From a virus, in the IMG/VR virus record IMGVR_UViG_3300018875_000063, positions 1 to 21,374 of that record: a DNA stretch of 21,374 nt. One strand, written 5' to 3'. The position numbers and the translations under genes are program-made. This document shows positions 1 through 4,898 of this stretch, one piece after another (position 1 is the first letter of the stretch; every line of letters starts with the position of its first letter). The notes under the pieces are model-generated. The model was given only the letters and a program-made list of their open reading frames with translations, was not told where the DNA came from and searched no databases.

Positions 1-798
1 ATGATATCGGCCATTGATGCAGGCAATTACATGACCAAGTTTTTTGACGGTCGGCAGCTGAGGGCGTTCCCCTCCCTGATCGGGGAGTACCGGGAACGCA
101 ACCTCCGGCAGCAGCACGGGGATTATGATTTCGAGTTTGAATACGAAGGCCAGCGGGGATTCGCCGGCACGCTTGCTCTACATGAGAGTGAATGCGCGGA
201 AAGCCGGAAAGGCGAGAGCAAAGCGCATCCGGATGCCCGCCTGCGAATCCTGCTTGCGCTGCACCAGTTTGGCGAGGGAATAGAGCATCAGATCATTGTC
301 GGCCAGCCGATCAGCACGCATCAGGAGGCAGAGAAGGCAGCCATCAAGGAGATGCTTTGCGGTCGGCATGAGCTAATCGTGAACGGACAGCGGAAGATCA
401 TCGTCATCCGGCGCTGCGAGGTGGCGGCGGAGGGGGTGACGGCGGGCCTCCTGGTTCCCGGCGGCGGAGTGATCAGGGTAATCGATGTCGGCAGCGGTAC
501 GGTCAATTTCGGCACGCTGATCGATCGCCGGTTTAACGACCGCGGGAGCTTTACGCTGGGGACCGGGATGGAGACGCTTCGATCCGTTAAACCTGCAGAT
601 TTCGCCCGCCAGATCGCTCTCAGGGCGCTTGCCGGGGGCTGGAAGGCTAATGATAGGGTTTACCTATGCGGGGGCGGAGCTGGGGCCGTCTTGGAGGCCC
701 TGCGGGCGTACTTCCCTGGTATCCAGTTGATCGAGGGCGATCCGCAGTATGCCAACGTAAAAGCGTTCTTCTTGATCGCGAGGAGGGTCTATGGCTAA
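1..798 (+). CDS. parM: ParM-like actin-family ATPase (plasmid/prophage segregation)
   Basis: This 265-residue protein is predicted to polymerise with ATP and push DNA copies apart, as ParM and Alp proteins do on plasmids. The actin-fold signatures are visible in order: phosphate-1 loop DAGNYMTK at residues 6-13, a central FPSLIGEYRERN stretch typical of Alp proteins, phosphate-2 loop VIDVGSGTVNFGTL near 162-175, and an adenosine-motif glycine run CGGGAGAV near 224-231. It is shorter than ParM of R1 (about 320 residues), yet the N-terminus begins exactly at the phosphate-1 strand, so it is probably complete. The start sits at base 1, so its ribosome binding site and any upstream centromere cannot be seen. 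It overlaps the next gene by 8 bp, as parM-parR pairs often do. The family assignment is firm; the role in segregation is inferred. Confidence 0.85.
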   Translation: MISAIDAGNYMTKFFDGRQLRAFPSLIGEYRERNLRQQHGDYDFEFEYEGQRGFAGTLALHESECAESRKGESKAHPDARLRILLALHQFGEGIEHQIIVGQPISTHQEAEKAAIKEMLCGRHELIVNGQRKIIVIRRCEVAAEGVTAGLLVPGGGVIRVIDVGSGTVNFGTLIDRRFNDRGSFTLGTGMETLRSVKPADFARQIALRALAGGWKANDRVYLCGGGAGAVLEALRAYFPGIQLIEGDPQYANVKAFFLIARRVYG

Positions 799-1003
799 GG
801 AGATCCGGATTATTCAGGTGGCATTTAATGTGCTCGACCCTGACCAGCTGCAGCTCTACAATCACGTCCAGGAGCGGCCGAATAAGTCCGGTTATCTCAA
901 ACGGCTGATTCAGCGGGATGTCGACGGCGGGCACGGCGGCGGCCGACTGGCTGCGCCGGCTCCGGAGCTGGGGAATGATTTTGTCGTTGAAGGTTTTATC
1001 TAA
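791..1003 (+). CDS. ParR-like small DNA-binding adaptor
   Basis: A 70-residue protein whose ATG lies within the end of parM, preceded by AGGAGG at 780-785. The first half reads as a ribbon-helix-helix-like unit: strand IRIIQVAFNV, then DPDQLQLYNHVQERPNKSGYLKRLIQRDV, where the helix ending in YLKRLIQ resembles ParR and Alp-adaptor proteins. The C-terminal third is Gly/Ala-rich and probably flexible, ending in acidic and hydrophobic residues that could contact the filament. The function would be to bind a centromere-like repeat and couple it to ParM filaments. The assignment rests on gene order plus the pattern of the first 45 residues; no alignment was run. It could instead be a small autorepressor of the operon, which ParR proteins usually also are. 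Confidence 0.6.
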   Translation: MAKEIRIIQVAFNVLDPDQLQLYNHVQERPNKSGYLKRLIQRDVDGGHGGGRLAAPAPELGNDFVVEGFI

Positions 1004-1351: not shown

Positions 1352-2566
1352 ATGATAATGAGCGGAGTGGGTGGGATAGCAATTATTAAGTTAGCGGCAG
1401 CCTGCGGCTGTCTGGGCGGCGCGTGGACGGTCTACAGGACGACGGCAGACTCAATGTATCGGACCAAGATGCGGAAGCTGTTCATTGCCGGAGAAATCTG
1501 CCTAAAGCGCAGGGGGCGGCAGGGGAAGGAGCTCCGTGTGTATCCCCAGGTGAGCCGGGTCACGGTTTATCATGATTGCGTGCAGGTGGTCTTTGTCCTG
1601 CCGAACGGTCTGGATCCAAAGGAGGTCCGTAAACGGGATTGGCTATTCGAGCAAACCTTTGGCGATAACATCGAGCTATCCGGCTCCTCCAAGACGTTCA
1701 CCTTGAACATTTACGGCCAGGAGGTGCGGCGGTTCGATTATGAGCCGGCGGCCGTAGAGAGGGCCGTAGAAGGACTCAAACTGCCTATCTATGTCGGACG
1801 GAGCCGGACAGGGGATGTAGTGTATGACATGACGGAGCACCCGCATTTACTTGTGGCCGGGGAAACCGGCAGCGGGAAGTCCGTCGCTCTGCGGTCCATC
1901 CTTACGACTCTAATCCGGACAGCGGCGGACAAATTGGAATTGTATTGTGCGGACCTGAAGCGGTCGGAGTTCCATTTATTCAAGGGGGTTGCCCGGCAGG
2001 TGGTGGTCGAAGTTCCTCAGCTGCACCAGATCGTCCTCAAGATCCGGAAGGAGATGCGGCGCCGGGGGGATCTGTTGGACCGGGCGGGCCTGGCGAATAT
2101 AGATGATCTGCCGGCGGGGGAACGGCCCCCGTACATCGTGCTGGCGATCGATGAGGTGGCGTTGCTCAAAAAAGAGAGGGAGATGATGGACGGCATCGAG
2201 GAGATCAGCGCGATCGGGCGTGCCCTGGGGGTGTTCTTGATCCTCAGCATGCAGCGGCCGGATGCGGACGTCCTGGACGGTAAATTAAAGAATAACCTGA
2301 CGGTCCGGATGGCATTTCGCCATAGCGATGAGATCAATAGCCGGATCACCATCGGCAGCGGGGAGGCCGCGGACATCCAGCAGAGCCAAAAGGGGCGAAT
2401 GGTGCTCAAGTTAGACGGCCTGACGAACGTCCAGGGGCCGTATCTCGATCTTCCAAAGGCAAAGACACTCCTGGAGCTCTACAAGCGCACAGAGGAGCCT
2501 ACAGCGGCCCAGAAAGAACCGGAATGGCCGAAGGATGATGAAACAATAGAGATAGGGGTGTTGTGA
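1352..2566 (+). CDS. FtsK/SpoIIIE-family DNA translocase
   Basis: A 404-residue ATPase of the FtsK/HerA class. Residues 5-28 form one hydrophobic segment that probably anchors it in the membrane. The ATPase core follows with TEHPHLLVAGETGSGKS (Walker A 170-177), YCADLKRSEF (strand 2, 198-207) and YIVLAIDEVALL (Walker B 261-268). A later LILSMQRPDADVLDGKLKNN stretch is the usual FtsK sensor region, where Q and R coordinate nucleotide. It lacks the long linker and the gamma DNA-recognition domain of chromosomal FtsK, so it resembles the short translocases of plasmids, ICEs and phages such as the anthrax gamma/W-beta group. The ATG has only a weak AAGGGG site upstream. The next gene starts on its stop codon (GTGA), so the two are translationally coupled. 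It probably moves or positions the element's DNA. Confidence 0.85.
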   Translation: MIMSGVGGIAIIKLAAACGCLGGAWTVYRTTADSMYRTKMRKLFIAGEICLKRRGRQGKELRVYPQVSRVTVYHDCVQVVFVLPNGLDPKEVRKRDWLFEQTFGDNIELSGSSKTFTLNIYGQEVRRFDYEPAAVERAVEGLKLPIYVGRSRTGDVVYDMTEHPHLLVAGETGSGKSVALRSILTTLIRTAADKLELYCADLKRSEFHLFKGVARQVVVEVPQLHQIVLKIRKEMRRRGDLLDRAGLANIDDLPAGERPPYIVLAIDEVALLKKEREMMDGIEEISAIGRALGVFLILSMQRPDADVLDGKLKNNLTVRMAFRHSDEINSRITIGSGEAADIQQSQKGRMVLKLDGLTNVQGPYLDLPKAKTLLELYKRTEEPTAAQKEPEWPKDDETIEIGVL

Positions 2567-3180
2567 AGGTGAACGCGCGCGACAGAGCGATCGTGGCTGA
2601 TCTGGTACGATTCCGCTGCCTGACCCGGGATGATGTGGCGGAGCTTCACTTTTACAACGTCAAGAACCCGGTCACTCAGGCGAACATGGTCCTTAAGCGG
2701 CTGCGGCGGGATGACCTCATTACCTGCGCCACGGATCGGCGAAAGTACATCTATTTCCCGGTGCCGGGCATCAAAAAGGACAGCGCAAAGATAGGGCACT
2801 TCCTGGCTATCGTGGACTTTTACAAGCAGATCCGGAAGGTGGAGGCGCCACGGGTATTCGATGTGGAGCCTAAGCTCGGCGGAAAGGGGCGGCCGGAGCC
2901 GGATGTGTTTTGCATCTGGAAGGGAGCACCGTGGTTTGTGGAGATCCAGCGCTCAACATTTACTGATAAGGTCATGCAGGAGAAGCTGAACCGATATGAG
3001 CAGTATTATCTTAGCGGGGAATGGGAACGGGAGGCGTGGCAGCCGGCGGCCAAAAAGGTATTCCCGTATGTGTGGATCGTCGGGGCTGGCGCCGGCAGTT
3101 ACCGTACCGCAGGAAGGTCATTCAGAGTGTTCCAGGACAGTGTTGATGGGATGAAAAAGAGATTGGGGATTGATTCCTGA
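2563..3180 (+). CDS. Replication-relaxation family protein
   Basis: A 205-residue protein starting with GTG that overlaps the preceding TGA. The N-terminal 75 residues form a winged helix: RDRAIVADLVRFRCLTRDDV is followed by VLKRLRRDDLI and a basic wing with aromatic YIYFPV. The C-terminal part carries PEPDVFCIW and FVEIQRSTFTDK, a D...ExQ arrangement like the core of PD-(D/E)xK nucleases that is common in the replication-relaxation family. Such proteins are regularly found beside FtsK-type translocases in Firmicutes plasmids and prophages, as here. Whether it cuts DNA is unknown. A second in-frame GTG at 2569 is an alternative start. The family call is fairly secure; the role in replication is by family name only. 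Confidence 0.75.
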   Translation: MKVNARDRAIVADLVRFRCLTRDDVAELHFYNVKNPVTQANMVLKRLRRDDLITCATDRRKYIYFPVPGIKKDSAKIGHFLAIVDFYKQIRKVEAPRVFDVEPKLGGKGRPEPDVFCIWKGAPWFVEIQRSTFTDKVMQEKLNRYEQYYLSGEWEREAWQPAAKKVFPYVWIVGAGAGSYRTAGRSFRVFQDSVDGMKKRLGIDS

Positions 3181-3277
3181 TTCTGGAATGTGTTATTATG
3201 TTGCACATATCATACTTTGTTAATGATAAATCTAACCCCTAGCCGTACAGGGGCATCAAATATCAAATTAGATTCAA

Positions 3278-3291
3278 TATAGTGGTATAAC
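3278..3291 (+). promoter_or_regulatory. Possible promoter for the structured RNA
   Basis: TATAGT at 3278-3283 would place a transcription start near 3290, just before the first arm of the RNA. TATAAC at 3286-3291, preceded by TGG, is an alternative extended -10 that would start inside the arm, near 3298. Neither has a good -35, so this is tentative. A 5-bp stem (3236-3240 with 3249-3253) lies upstream and could end transcription from the preceding gene, though it has no T tract. Confidence 0.3.
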
Positions 3292-3463
3292 AAAGGCCGC
3301 TACAATTATCAAGTTTAAGAAGTGTTGAGCAGTATTAAAGTAATCATCTCAATTAAAAAAAACGCTATTTCAATAAAGTTTAGAACTGTACTTTATTGAG
3401 CATTAGTGTTTTGAAGAGATGGTGATACTCAACCTTCCCTTGATTATTGTAGCGGCCTTTTTT
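3292..3463 (+). ncRNA. Presumptive rod-shaped noncoding RNA with terminator
   Basis: This 172-nt AT-rich segment folds back on itself over its entire length. The closing stem pairs 3292-3313 with 3439-3460 (21 of 22 positions) and is followed by a T6 run at 3458-3463, as in an intrinsic terminator. Inside are GAAG 3319-3322 with CTTC 3434-3437, GTTGAG 3324-3329 with CTCAAC 3428-3433, CATCTC 3345-3350 with GAGATG 3416-3421, AAAACGCTA 3359-3367 with TAGTGTTTT 3404-3412 (one G-U), and a perfect 10-bp hairpin, 3370-3379 with 3390-3399. No ORF of note lies inside. The shape, size and U tail recall a regulatory RNA such as a 6S-like rod, but no known family is recognised. A snap-back mobile repeat is less likely because no target duplication flanks it. 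Confidence 0.6.
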
Positions 3464-3476
3464 CATTTAAAAACTG

Positions 3477-3574
3477 AAAGGAGGTGATGCTGGATTAATT
3501 TTCAAATTCGGCATTCGACACTTTGCGACAGCGAAGTCAAAAGGAAAGAATTAGAATGTAGGAAGCACATGTGA
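3477..3574 (+). other. Perfect Shine-Dalgarno with only a tiny ORF (AUU start?)
   Basis: AAAGGAGGTGAT at 3477-3488 is a full-length anti-16S match, stronger than most sites in this window, yet the ATG inside it (3487) yields only three codons. Nine bases after GGAGG an ATT at 3494 opens a 27-codon frame ending at TGA 3572-3574, with basic and charged content (DSEVKRKELECRKHM near its end). It may be a leader peptide with an unusual start, a decayed gene, or a chance 16S-like site. No homology is recognised. Confidence 0.2.
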
Positions 3575-3596
3575 GTGTTAAGTGTTACTTAACACT
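3574..3596. repeat. Perfect 10-bp inverted repeat
   Basis: AGTGTTAAGT at 3574-3583 and its exact reverse complement at 3587-3596 are separated by GTT. No T run follows on either strand, so an operator or protein-binding dyad is more likely than a terminator. A second small dyad, GAGTAG 3609-3614 with CTACTC 3620-3625, overlaps the stop codon of the leftward gene next door and may help end its transcript. Confidence 0.5.
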
Positions 3597-3619
3597 TTAC
3601 TCGGGGAGGAGTAGATTAA

Positions 3620-3847
3620 CTACTCATTCCTGCTACTGTCCCATTTCAGTACATAAAGATCGGTCACACGACAATTAAGGAAATATGCGGCGTTAATTGC
3701 GAATGTAAGAGACATCTTTGCCTCGCCAGATATCAATTGGCTAACGTATGAACGCGAGCACTTCATGTGTCTAGCGAACTCCGCTTGCGTAATTCCCTTG
3801 TCATCAAGTCGATCTTGTAGCAGGCAGTCCCCGAGTAGGAACGCCAA
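3620..3847 (-). CDS. Small XRE-family (Cro/CI-type) regulator
   Basis: A 75-residue leftward protein consisting almost wholly of an HTH_3-type domain. The helix-turn-helix is ITQAEFARHMKCSRSYVSQL at residues 19-38, followed by ISGEAKMSLTFAINAAYFL. The start is TTG (3845-3847), supported by AAAGGAG ten bases upstream; no ATG is available in frame. It lies downstream of the larger repressor in the same orientation, but with a 208-bp gap holding its own promoter region and repeated GTTCG motifs, so it is probably regulated separately. It may act as a second lysogeny regulator. Its targets are unknown; the 12-bp repeats upstream are good candidates. Confidence 0.75.
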   Translation of the reverse strand: MAFLLGDCLLQDRLDDKGITQAEFARHMKCSRSYVSQLISGEAKMSLTFAINAAYFLNCRVTDLYVLKWDSSRNE

Positions 3848-3916: not shown

Positions 3917-4055
3917 AGGGGTGATATACTCAATTTAAATCGATGCTGACGGAAATTTATTACATCCAGGGAGTGATGACTTATTCGAAAAGAAATTAAT
4001 CTTAAGGTGTTATCTGTGATCATGGGTAGAGAACCTGACTTCTTAATAAATGTTG

Positions 4056-4898
4056 TCAAATGTTCTTCTTCTGTTCACGATAAAGACGCTCAGCTCGTAC
4101 AGCGGCGATCATCCGAGCGTATTCCTCATCAGTCAATTCCTGACCATCAACCTTAAAGGAGAATGCTTCTTTAATTTCTTCGTCTGAAAGTTCCAATGAT
4201 TTTTCATAAAGCTCTACCTCTGCATTATAAGAGGGAGGGCTTTCTTTGATTTCATTATTCAAGAATGGAATACTGATACCTTCTTTAGCACAAAAAATAA
4301 TTAGTTCATTCCAGAAATCTGATAAGCCTTTTTTCGTAAAGGTACGATCCTTTAAATTTTCAATTCCTTTTTTAACTGTATTGTAATTATAGAACCTATT
4401 AAATTCCTCGACAGCCATCTCTTTATCAGATTCAGTTATTTGGTCCTCTTCTGAATGTATATAATCGTAATACCAATCATCAAAGTCATTGGTGCTTCTA
4501 AACGATGATCCCTTTGTAACAGATGCTATATCAGCGGCATATCCACCAAATATCGAGAATATCTGTTTGTGATACTTCGTCGGAAACTCATTCATGTCAT
4601 TCACAACATTTTTCACAAGTTGAATTAATCTATCCTCGAGTTTTTCCTCCTCCTGATACATATCTATTAATTCATAATCTTCTTTGTTTAGATACCCTGC
4701 TGCAATCATAATCTCTGGATAAGTAATTCCTAATGATCTTGCTAACTTTTTTAGTACAGGAGCTTTTGGAGGATTCCGATCTCCACTTTCAACTCTGGAT
4801 AAATGAGAATGGCTGATTCCAGACTTTTCAGCTACCTCGCTTAGAGTTAGCCCATGCTCTTCACGCTTTGATTTGATGAATTGACCAAAATTATTCAT
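4056..4898 (-). CDS. CI-like phage repressor with XRE domain
   Basis: A 280-residue leftward protein. Residues 1-65 form an XRE DNA-binding domain: FGQFIKSKREEHGLTLSEVA, then GISHSHLSRVESGDRNPPKA, where S, H and R residues lie on the recognition helix. The remaining 215 residues are acidic, helical and soluble, with no S24/LexA-type protease motif, so induction probably relies on an antirepressor or another signal rather than self-cleavage. Of three in-frame ATGs, the third (4898) is chosen because GGAGG lies ten bases upstream; the one at 4907 is only one base from it. It faces the Cro-like gene across an operator-rich gap, the standard immunity layout. Lysogeny control is inferred from that layout. 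Confidence 0.8.
   Translation of the reverse strand: MNNFGQFIKSKREEHGLTLSEVAEKSGISHSHLSRVESGDRNPPKAPVLKKLARSLGITYPEIMIAAGYLNKEDYELIDMYQEEEKLEDRLIQLVKNVVNDMNEFPTKYHKQIFSIFGGYAADIASVTKGSSFRSTNDFDDWYYDYIHSEEDQITESDKEMAVEEFNRFYNYNTVKKGIENLKDRTFTKKGLSDFWNELIIFCAKEGISIPFLNNEIKESPPSYNAEVELYEKSLELSDEEIKEAFSFKVDGQELTDEEYARMIAAVRAERLYREQKKNI

Follow-up and report, generated by a model that had tools for sequence, protein, structure and literature searches.

The closest described counterparts of the element reported here are 6S RNA (RF00013), intrinsic terminators, the RNase III hairpin in the N leader of phage lambda, and the packaging RNA (pRNA) of phage phi29 (RF00044). 6S RNA is a long unbranched rod, whereas phi29 pRNA is a phage noncoding RNA with a three-way junction. 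Intrinsic terminators have a G+C-rich hairpin base with an immediate T-run and are one-directional; the lambda hairpin, which is not a terminator, is a long stem of a temperate phage with an early promoter on one side and a Shine-Dalgarno sequence on the other. The window analyzed here, i.e., an entire virus record of 21,374 bases, contains a rod-shaped RNA element that shares traits with each of these systems. It resembles 6S RNA as a long unbranched rod, but it is phage-borne, lacks a large central bubble, and has no Rfam match. It has the hairpin base, T-run and directionality of an intrinsic terminator; however, the rods of this group measure 121–172 nt with 41–63 pairs, share an A-rich internal loop, and are accompanied by a promoter-like site. 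The long stem, lying between a promoter-like site and a Shine-Dalgarno-like sequence, recalls the lambda N leader, but the rod is followed by a T-run and no equivalent of gene N was identified. Similarity to phi29 pRNA is limited to a comparable length, the phage origin of a noncoding RNA, and an FtsK-type ATPase gene near the rod; pRNA identity was rejected, since all ten homologues form one hairpin, the rod has no branch points, and Rfam gave no match.

Segment 3292–3463 folds into one unbranched rod with a minimum free energy (MFE) of -65.9 kcal/mol, compared with -29.5 ± 3.7 kcal/mol for 200 dinucleotide shuffles (z -9.9). The MFE structure comprises 63 pairs in a single hairpin: a closing stem of 15+6 bp leads through short helices to helices of 8, 9, and 11 bp, and the biggest internal loop of the predicted rod is 8+3 nt. 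The outer arms (3289–3313 and 3439–3463) are 25 nt long and 92% complementary. Because the segment is a long inverted repeat, its reverse complement folds nearly as stably (-62.8 kcal/mol, z -10.3). The rod was not listed by a simple terminator scanner, as the loop limit of that scanner is 8.

The original prediction, made from the letters of the DNA, had described a rod-like structured RNA with a terminator. Its coordinates, rod shape, and T6 ending agree with the MFE fold, while its list of stems is close but not identical to the MFE helices. In the comparison with shuffled sequences that it had proposed, 0 of 200 shuffles matched the window fold, and the fold, the T6 run, and the covarying homologues described below together sustain the view of a structured RNA with a terminator. 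Its statement that the RNA belongs to no recognized family is likewise confirmed by Rfam 15, which gave no match at gathering thresholds in the window or in the scanned loci of relatives. At E ≤ 10, region 3150–3600 returned five chance-level Rfam matches far below family cut-offs, none of them to 6S RNA; the suggested likeness to 6S RNA is not sustained, the core being an A-rich asymmetric loop rather than a large central bubble.

Features at and around the rod locus in the window
Feature	Position	Strand	Description	Evidence
Replic_Relax (PF13814) gene	2563..3180	+	upstream of the rod; adjoins it in the window, L003, and L005; elsewhere not adjacent or not found	
Promoter-like site	3170..3199	+	TTGATT, 18 nt, extended -10 TG-N-TATTAT; overlaps the end of the Replic_Relax gene	
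Inferred 5' leader	3206..3291	+	hairpin 3236–3253; similar in L005 and L130 but not in others	alignment A7 and folds
Rod RNA	3292..3457	+	closing stem 3292–3313 with 3439–3460; A-rich internal loop 3351–3358 opposite GAA; apical hairpin 3368–3399	folds and covariation
T-run	3458..3463	+	completes the intrinsic terminator	at least 5 T in 10/10 homologues
Conserved post-terminator element	3477..3535	+	12-nt extended Shine-Dalgarno-like sequence, then CGACA-N5-CGACA; possible very short ORF from ATT	
Cro/CI-type HTH protein, 75 aa	3620..3847	-	convergent with the rod; homologue beside 8/9 rods	

To date the group comprises ten sequences from viral contigs and Paenibacillales genomes, namely the window rod, eight further rods, and one short relative of 59 nt (L004). 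All ten form a single hairpin (z -6.4 to -10.8) directly followed by a run of at least five T, as in an intrinsic terminator, and nine keep the length of 121–172 nt. The T-run lies on the + strand in every case, and the + strand fold is the more stable in nine; in the exception, G450, the other strand is slightly better (-54.6 vs -51.8). No run of four T was read beside the stem on the other strand of the homologues.

Relatives of the window Replic_Relax protein are encoded by six viral contigs. In L005 the protein is 86% identical and the rod is 92% identical at the DNA level; in L003 the protein is 91% identical, and the rod occupies the same place with very little sequence similarity (z about -6.2). 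L004 and its copy L010 carry the 59-nt hairpin at the rod position, with outer bases similar to those of the window, and since they manage with it, the long rod is dispensable there. None was seen at the rod position in L006, L007, and L008. Among genome contigs, eight of ten relatives of this protein came from records named Paenibacillus. L010 (NZ_KI783311.1) is filed as Pseudoxanthomonas sp. J31 and carries an apparent L004 Paenibacillus-type phage, which is probably contamination.

At 21 loci the downstream region was scanned for unusual folds, and both strands of 27 loci were examined with a rod detector. The detector recovered all five rods present as clean single hairpins (window, L003, L005, L087 from G010, and L089 from G079) and found no pure rod outside the shared locus in these 27 loci; its remaining matches all had two hairpins. 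Loci on repeat contigs were counted once (L009, L010, L028, L042–L046, L058, L093, L098, L101, L133, L134, and L138 were left out). In the genomes and records searched, every match corresponded to one locus per genome or record, which argues against a MITE or other mobile repeat; for the four closest relatives, any matches in their records were confined to the rod locus.

BLAST of the window rod region against phages and plasmids revealed no homologue, the lone plasmid match being due to chance (12% of the query, E 0.8), and the L089 and L141 regions likewise gave none. The exact outer-arm pattern matched only the L005 contig among viral contigs; of the 21 stretches that fitted the Shine-Dalgarno region pattern, 19 were unrelated. 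The core pattern matched 40 of 100 genomes, largely via an unrelated dispersed repeat, and of eight such loci that were folded, only the already known G010 match was a rod. A search of viral contigs for HTH homologues added one locus, L041, without a rod, and a second HTH query gave two weak partial matches. A dispersed element of ~65 nt with complementary ends, unrelated to the rod, is found repeatedly among Paenibacillus-type genomes (e.g., at loci L057, L060, and L079) and is multicopy in some genomes. A text search of the openly available part of PMC returned nothing on the rod element. As neither an Rfam family, nor a DNA record of a similar phage or plasmid, nor a paper within that open text was found, the data support the rod RNA as an undescribed family of Paenibacillales temperate phages.

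Retention of the fold was assessed on a structure-blind MAFFT alignment of six rods (A8), on which the window's own structure was scored; the short L004 hairpin was excluded from every covariation count. In A8, 73.1% of cells were paired, compared with 64.4 ± 1.6% in 500 shuffles, none of which was as high, and 41–48% for slid versions of the structure. Changes on both sides were found in 29 of the 63 window pairs (15.2 ± 2.8 in shuffles, 0/500 as high; 10–17 for slid versions); the slid comparison favors the window structure because it was taken from one of the six sequences, and the shuffle result is not a probability because the six rods are related. For the outer stem alone, both sides changed in 7 of 13 pairs in A8. 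In the nine-rod MAFFT alignment (A9), where only the outer stem was counted because the inner core of L087 is misaligned, this was the case for 8 of 14 pairs vs 2.8 ± 1.2 in shuffles. RNAalifold on A8 predicted the outer stem only. Read by eye, the 5' side of most cores has an A-run, and GUUUUGA or a close variant of it stands opposite on the 3' side.

A model derived from the window rod alone (R1) was searched in 30 loci and matched L005 (6e-36), L087 (7e-7), L003 (9e-5), and L004 (0.037), with the first unrelated locus at 0.15. Since the rod is nearly palindromic, R1 also gives lower-scoring matches to the other strand of the window and L005; L089 was initially found on the opposite strand only, and with filters off it scored 25.2 bits on the expected strand vs 21.6 on the other. 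Over 394 genomes R1 produced one match, G103 (L130), which is a lower bound because the G010 rod, present among the genomes searched, was missed. The second model (R2) was derived from A8, with the G103 and G010 rods in its training set. Five of 392 genomes of the order matched R2 at E ≤ 0.05, a lower bound as are all R2 genome counts, since stricter filters apply above 40 genomes. The matches outside the training set, G252 (3e-8), G016 (3e-7), and G450 (1e-6), are all single-hairpin rods with at least five terminal T. Further sets of 104 and 60 genomes yielded only G450 and G252 again, and nothing below 0.11 was found in 26 loci without a known rod.

The promoter-like site and the post-terminator element are additional to what the original prediction described. 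From the position of the site, transcription probably begins near 3206 and would give an RNA of ~260 nt (3206–3463). A comparable site lies 82–136 bp upstream in nine of ten loci. All of the first seven loci, L004 included, have TTGAxx, an 18-nt spacer, and an extended -10 with TG at 82–117 bp; with spacers of 16 to 19 accepted, such sites arose in 3–8% of shuffles per locus, for a distance range chosen after seeing the data. Of the other three loci, G252 has its comparable site at 99 bp; the site of G450, at 136 bp, is weaker, and the only one in G016, at 139 bp, is poor. The sites of the window, L003, L004, and L005 all fall on a single conserved coding end and cannot count as independent; the site is also present where the upstream gene differs, in L087, L089, L130, and G252. 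This joint occurrence of promoter and rod despite differing upstream genes suggests that they form one unit. When leader and rod were folded together, the rod persisted in 8/8 loci (97–100% of positions).

The gene order of the window is Alp-type actin, FtsK/SpoIIIE, and Replic_Relax on the left, then the rod, then HTH genes, BRO, AAA, and RecT; a DnaB-like helicase is also encoded. In L087, L089, and L130 the next upstream gene is not Replic_Relax, and at L130 it is directed away from the rod. The convergent HTH homologues vary in sequence, with identity down to 32% in G016 and 41% in G450. G252 lacks a convergent HTH homologue; an HTH_17-type protein and part of an integrase are encoded near its rod, and HTH homologues without a rod occur in L006, L014, L018, and L041. 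In L041 the rod position, just past the HTH homologue, seems to hold a quorum-sensing cassette, the parts of which look AgrB-like, AgrD-like, and LytTR-like on visual inspection. The G103 rod is situated near a UmuC-type polymerase gene (IMS domains; L131 7187–9513), and a HicA-type gene adjoins the G016 rod (L140 7117–7332). A small protein without a Pfam match is encoded after the Alp-type actin gene (window 791–1003, +; L141 2395–2688, -), and by position we presume that it may be a ParR-like actin adaptor.

We hypothesize, with a probability of about 60%, that the locus is a stand-alone noncoding RNA gene of ~260 nt whose 3' domain, the rod, serves as a long one-way terminator with a duplex kept for a further role. 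This reading builds on the fold of the rod and the compensatory changes that preserve it, the confinement of the T-run to a single strand, the upstream promoter-like site at most loci, and the convergent repressor-type gene. The transcript would run from ~3206 to 3463, and the rod at its 3' end would be an unusually long intrinsic terminator ending its own transcript. It would thereby shield the convergent repressor gene and the early module from rightward transcription, whether this starts at the promoter of the RNA itself or in the partition/replication operon. The family would span Paenibacillales temperate phages and prophage remnants. Nine of ten members keep 121–172 nt where a hairpin of 59 nt should terminate, which suggests that the duplex is retained for an extra role; the duplex with its A-rich loop may be a protein-binding or RNase III-sensitive structure. 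Against this stand the strand preference of G450, the weak promoter of G450 and the poor one of G016, the absence of a convergent HTH gene in G252, and the short hairpin of L004/L010. A bolder and rather improbable version holds that the A-rich-loop duplex binds RNase III, RNA polymerase, or the small HTH protein and so tunes lysogeny of Paenibacillus phages, with termination as a second, cis role.

The simplest competing view, which we consider unlikely, is that the rod merely terminates the Alp–FtsK–Replic_Relax operon and its length is incidental. It would account for the T-run in 10/10 homologues and for the plain 59-nt hairpin at the same place in L004, but not readily for inner helices that covary in nine long rods, nor for the rod and promoter-like site occurring together at L087, L089, and L130 behind genes other than Replic_Relax. 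That the segment functions as DNA, i.e., as a MITE or single-strand replication origin, is very improbable: both strands fold, but there is one locus per genome or record, the T-run and the stability are strand-asymmetric, and + strand pairs are kept through G-U.

Two further readings are regulatory. In the first, the rod would be an attenuator in the 5' leader of a very short ORF, and read-through would yield a micropeptide together with RNA antisense to the repressor gene. A strong Shine-Dalgarno-like sequence follows soon after the T-run in most loci, 12 nt of which in the window are complementary to the 3' end of 16S rRNA; a frame from ATT (ATG in L087) is open for 13–30 codons in 6/6 loci examined, and the window has no promoter-like site between rod and ORF. 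Set against these points, a second frame is open and looks equally conserved in 5/6 loci, CGACA-N5-CGACA is kept across frames and also in G016, and the short ORF is absent from L130 and G252. Pairing of the leader with either rod arm was no better than in shuffles at 8/8 loci, and the rod persists in the joint fold, so we regard attenuation as doubtful; attenuator or riboswitch refolding was rejected on the same pairing result. The conserved element, common to six loci, could be an operator or encode a micropeptide.

The rod might instead act in trans on the lysogeny decision, as a promoter-like site and terminator of its own and a convergent repressor-type gene beside 8/9 rods would suggest. 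However, at none of the 8 loci tested did the leader or the apical 50 nt form an unusual duplex with the HTH start region, so that antisense action on the adjacent repressor start was rejected, and the rod offers no conserved seed, because hardly any position is left unpaired and the apical loops vary; we hold a trans-acting RNA to be a tentative alternative with the odds against it. These unremarkable pairings of leader, arms, apex, and HTH start thus argue against both refolding attenuation and antisense control of the HTH start. The original prediction had named an antisense RNA as one option, and with the HTH start region as target this is not borne out. By contrast, the covariation analysis that it had proposed found both-sided changes above shuffles, and the neighborhood it had described, a maintenance block and an immunity region, is correct, with Alp-type actin, FtsK/SpoIIIE, and Replic_Relax genes on the left and HTH genes on the right. 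Overall, the structured RNA, terminator, unknown family, and covariation stand, whereas the 6S likeness and antisense pairing to the HTH start do not.

Returning to the preferred reading of a noncoding RNA gene with a terminator rod, the fold of the element is retained through an almost complete turnover of its sequence, and sequence searches miss elements of this kind. The element also remains linked to a repressor-type gene. Should the rod bind a protein, it would add an RNA layer to a Gram-positive lysogeny switch; even if it does no more than terminate, it would be a terminator of unusual length that selection has kept.

Two further observations concern the HTH gene. In the window, a hairpin at 3603–3630 spans its stop codon beside a G-rich stretch (C-rich in the mRNA), and the same was noted by eye at other loci. 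To the right of the 75-aa HTH gene, window 3983–4156 (+) holds a small ORF with a Shine-Dalgarno-like sequence. Across nine loci (window, L003, L087, L005, L006, L014, L018, L089, and L004) this ORF begins with ATT in six, ATC in one, and ATG in two; AUU/AUC starts are thus apparently conserved beside the HTH gene, which would be unusual.
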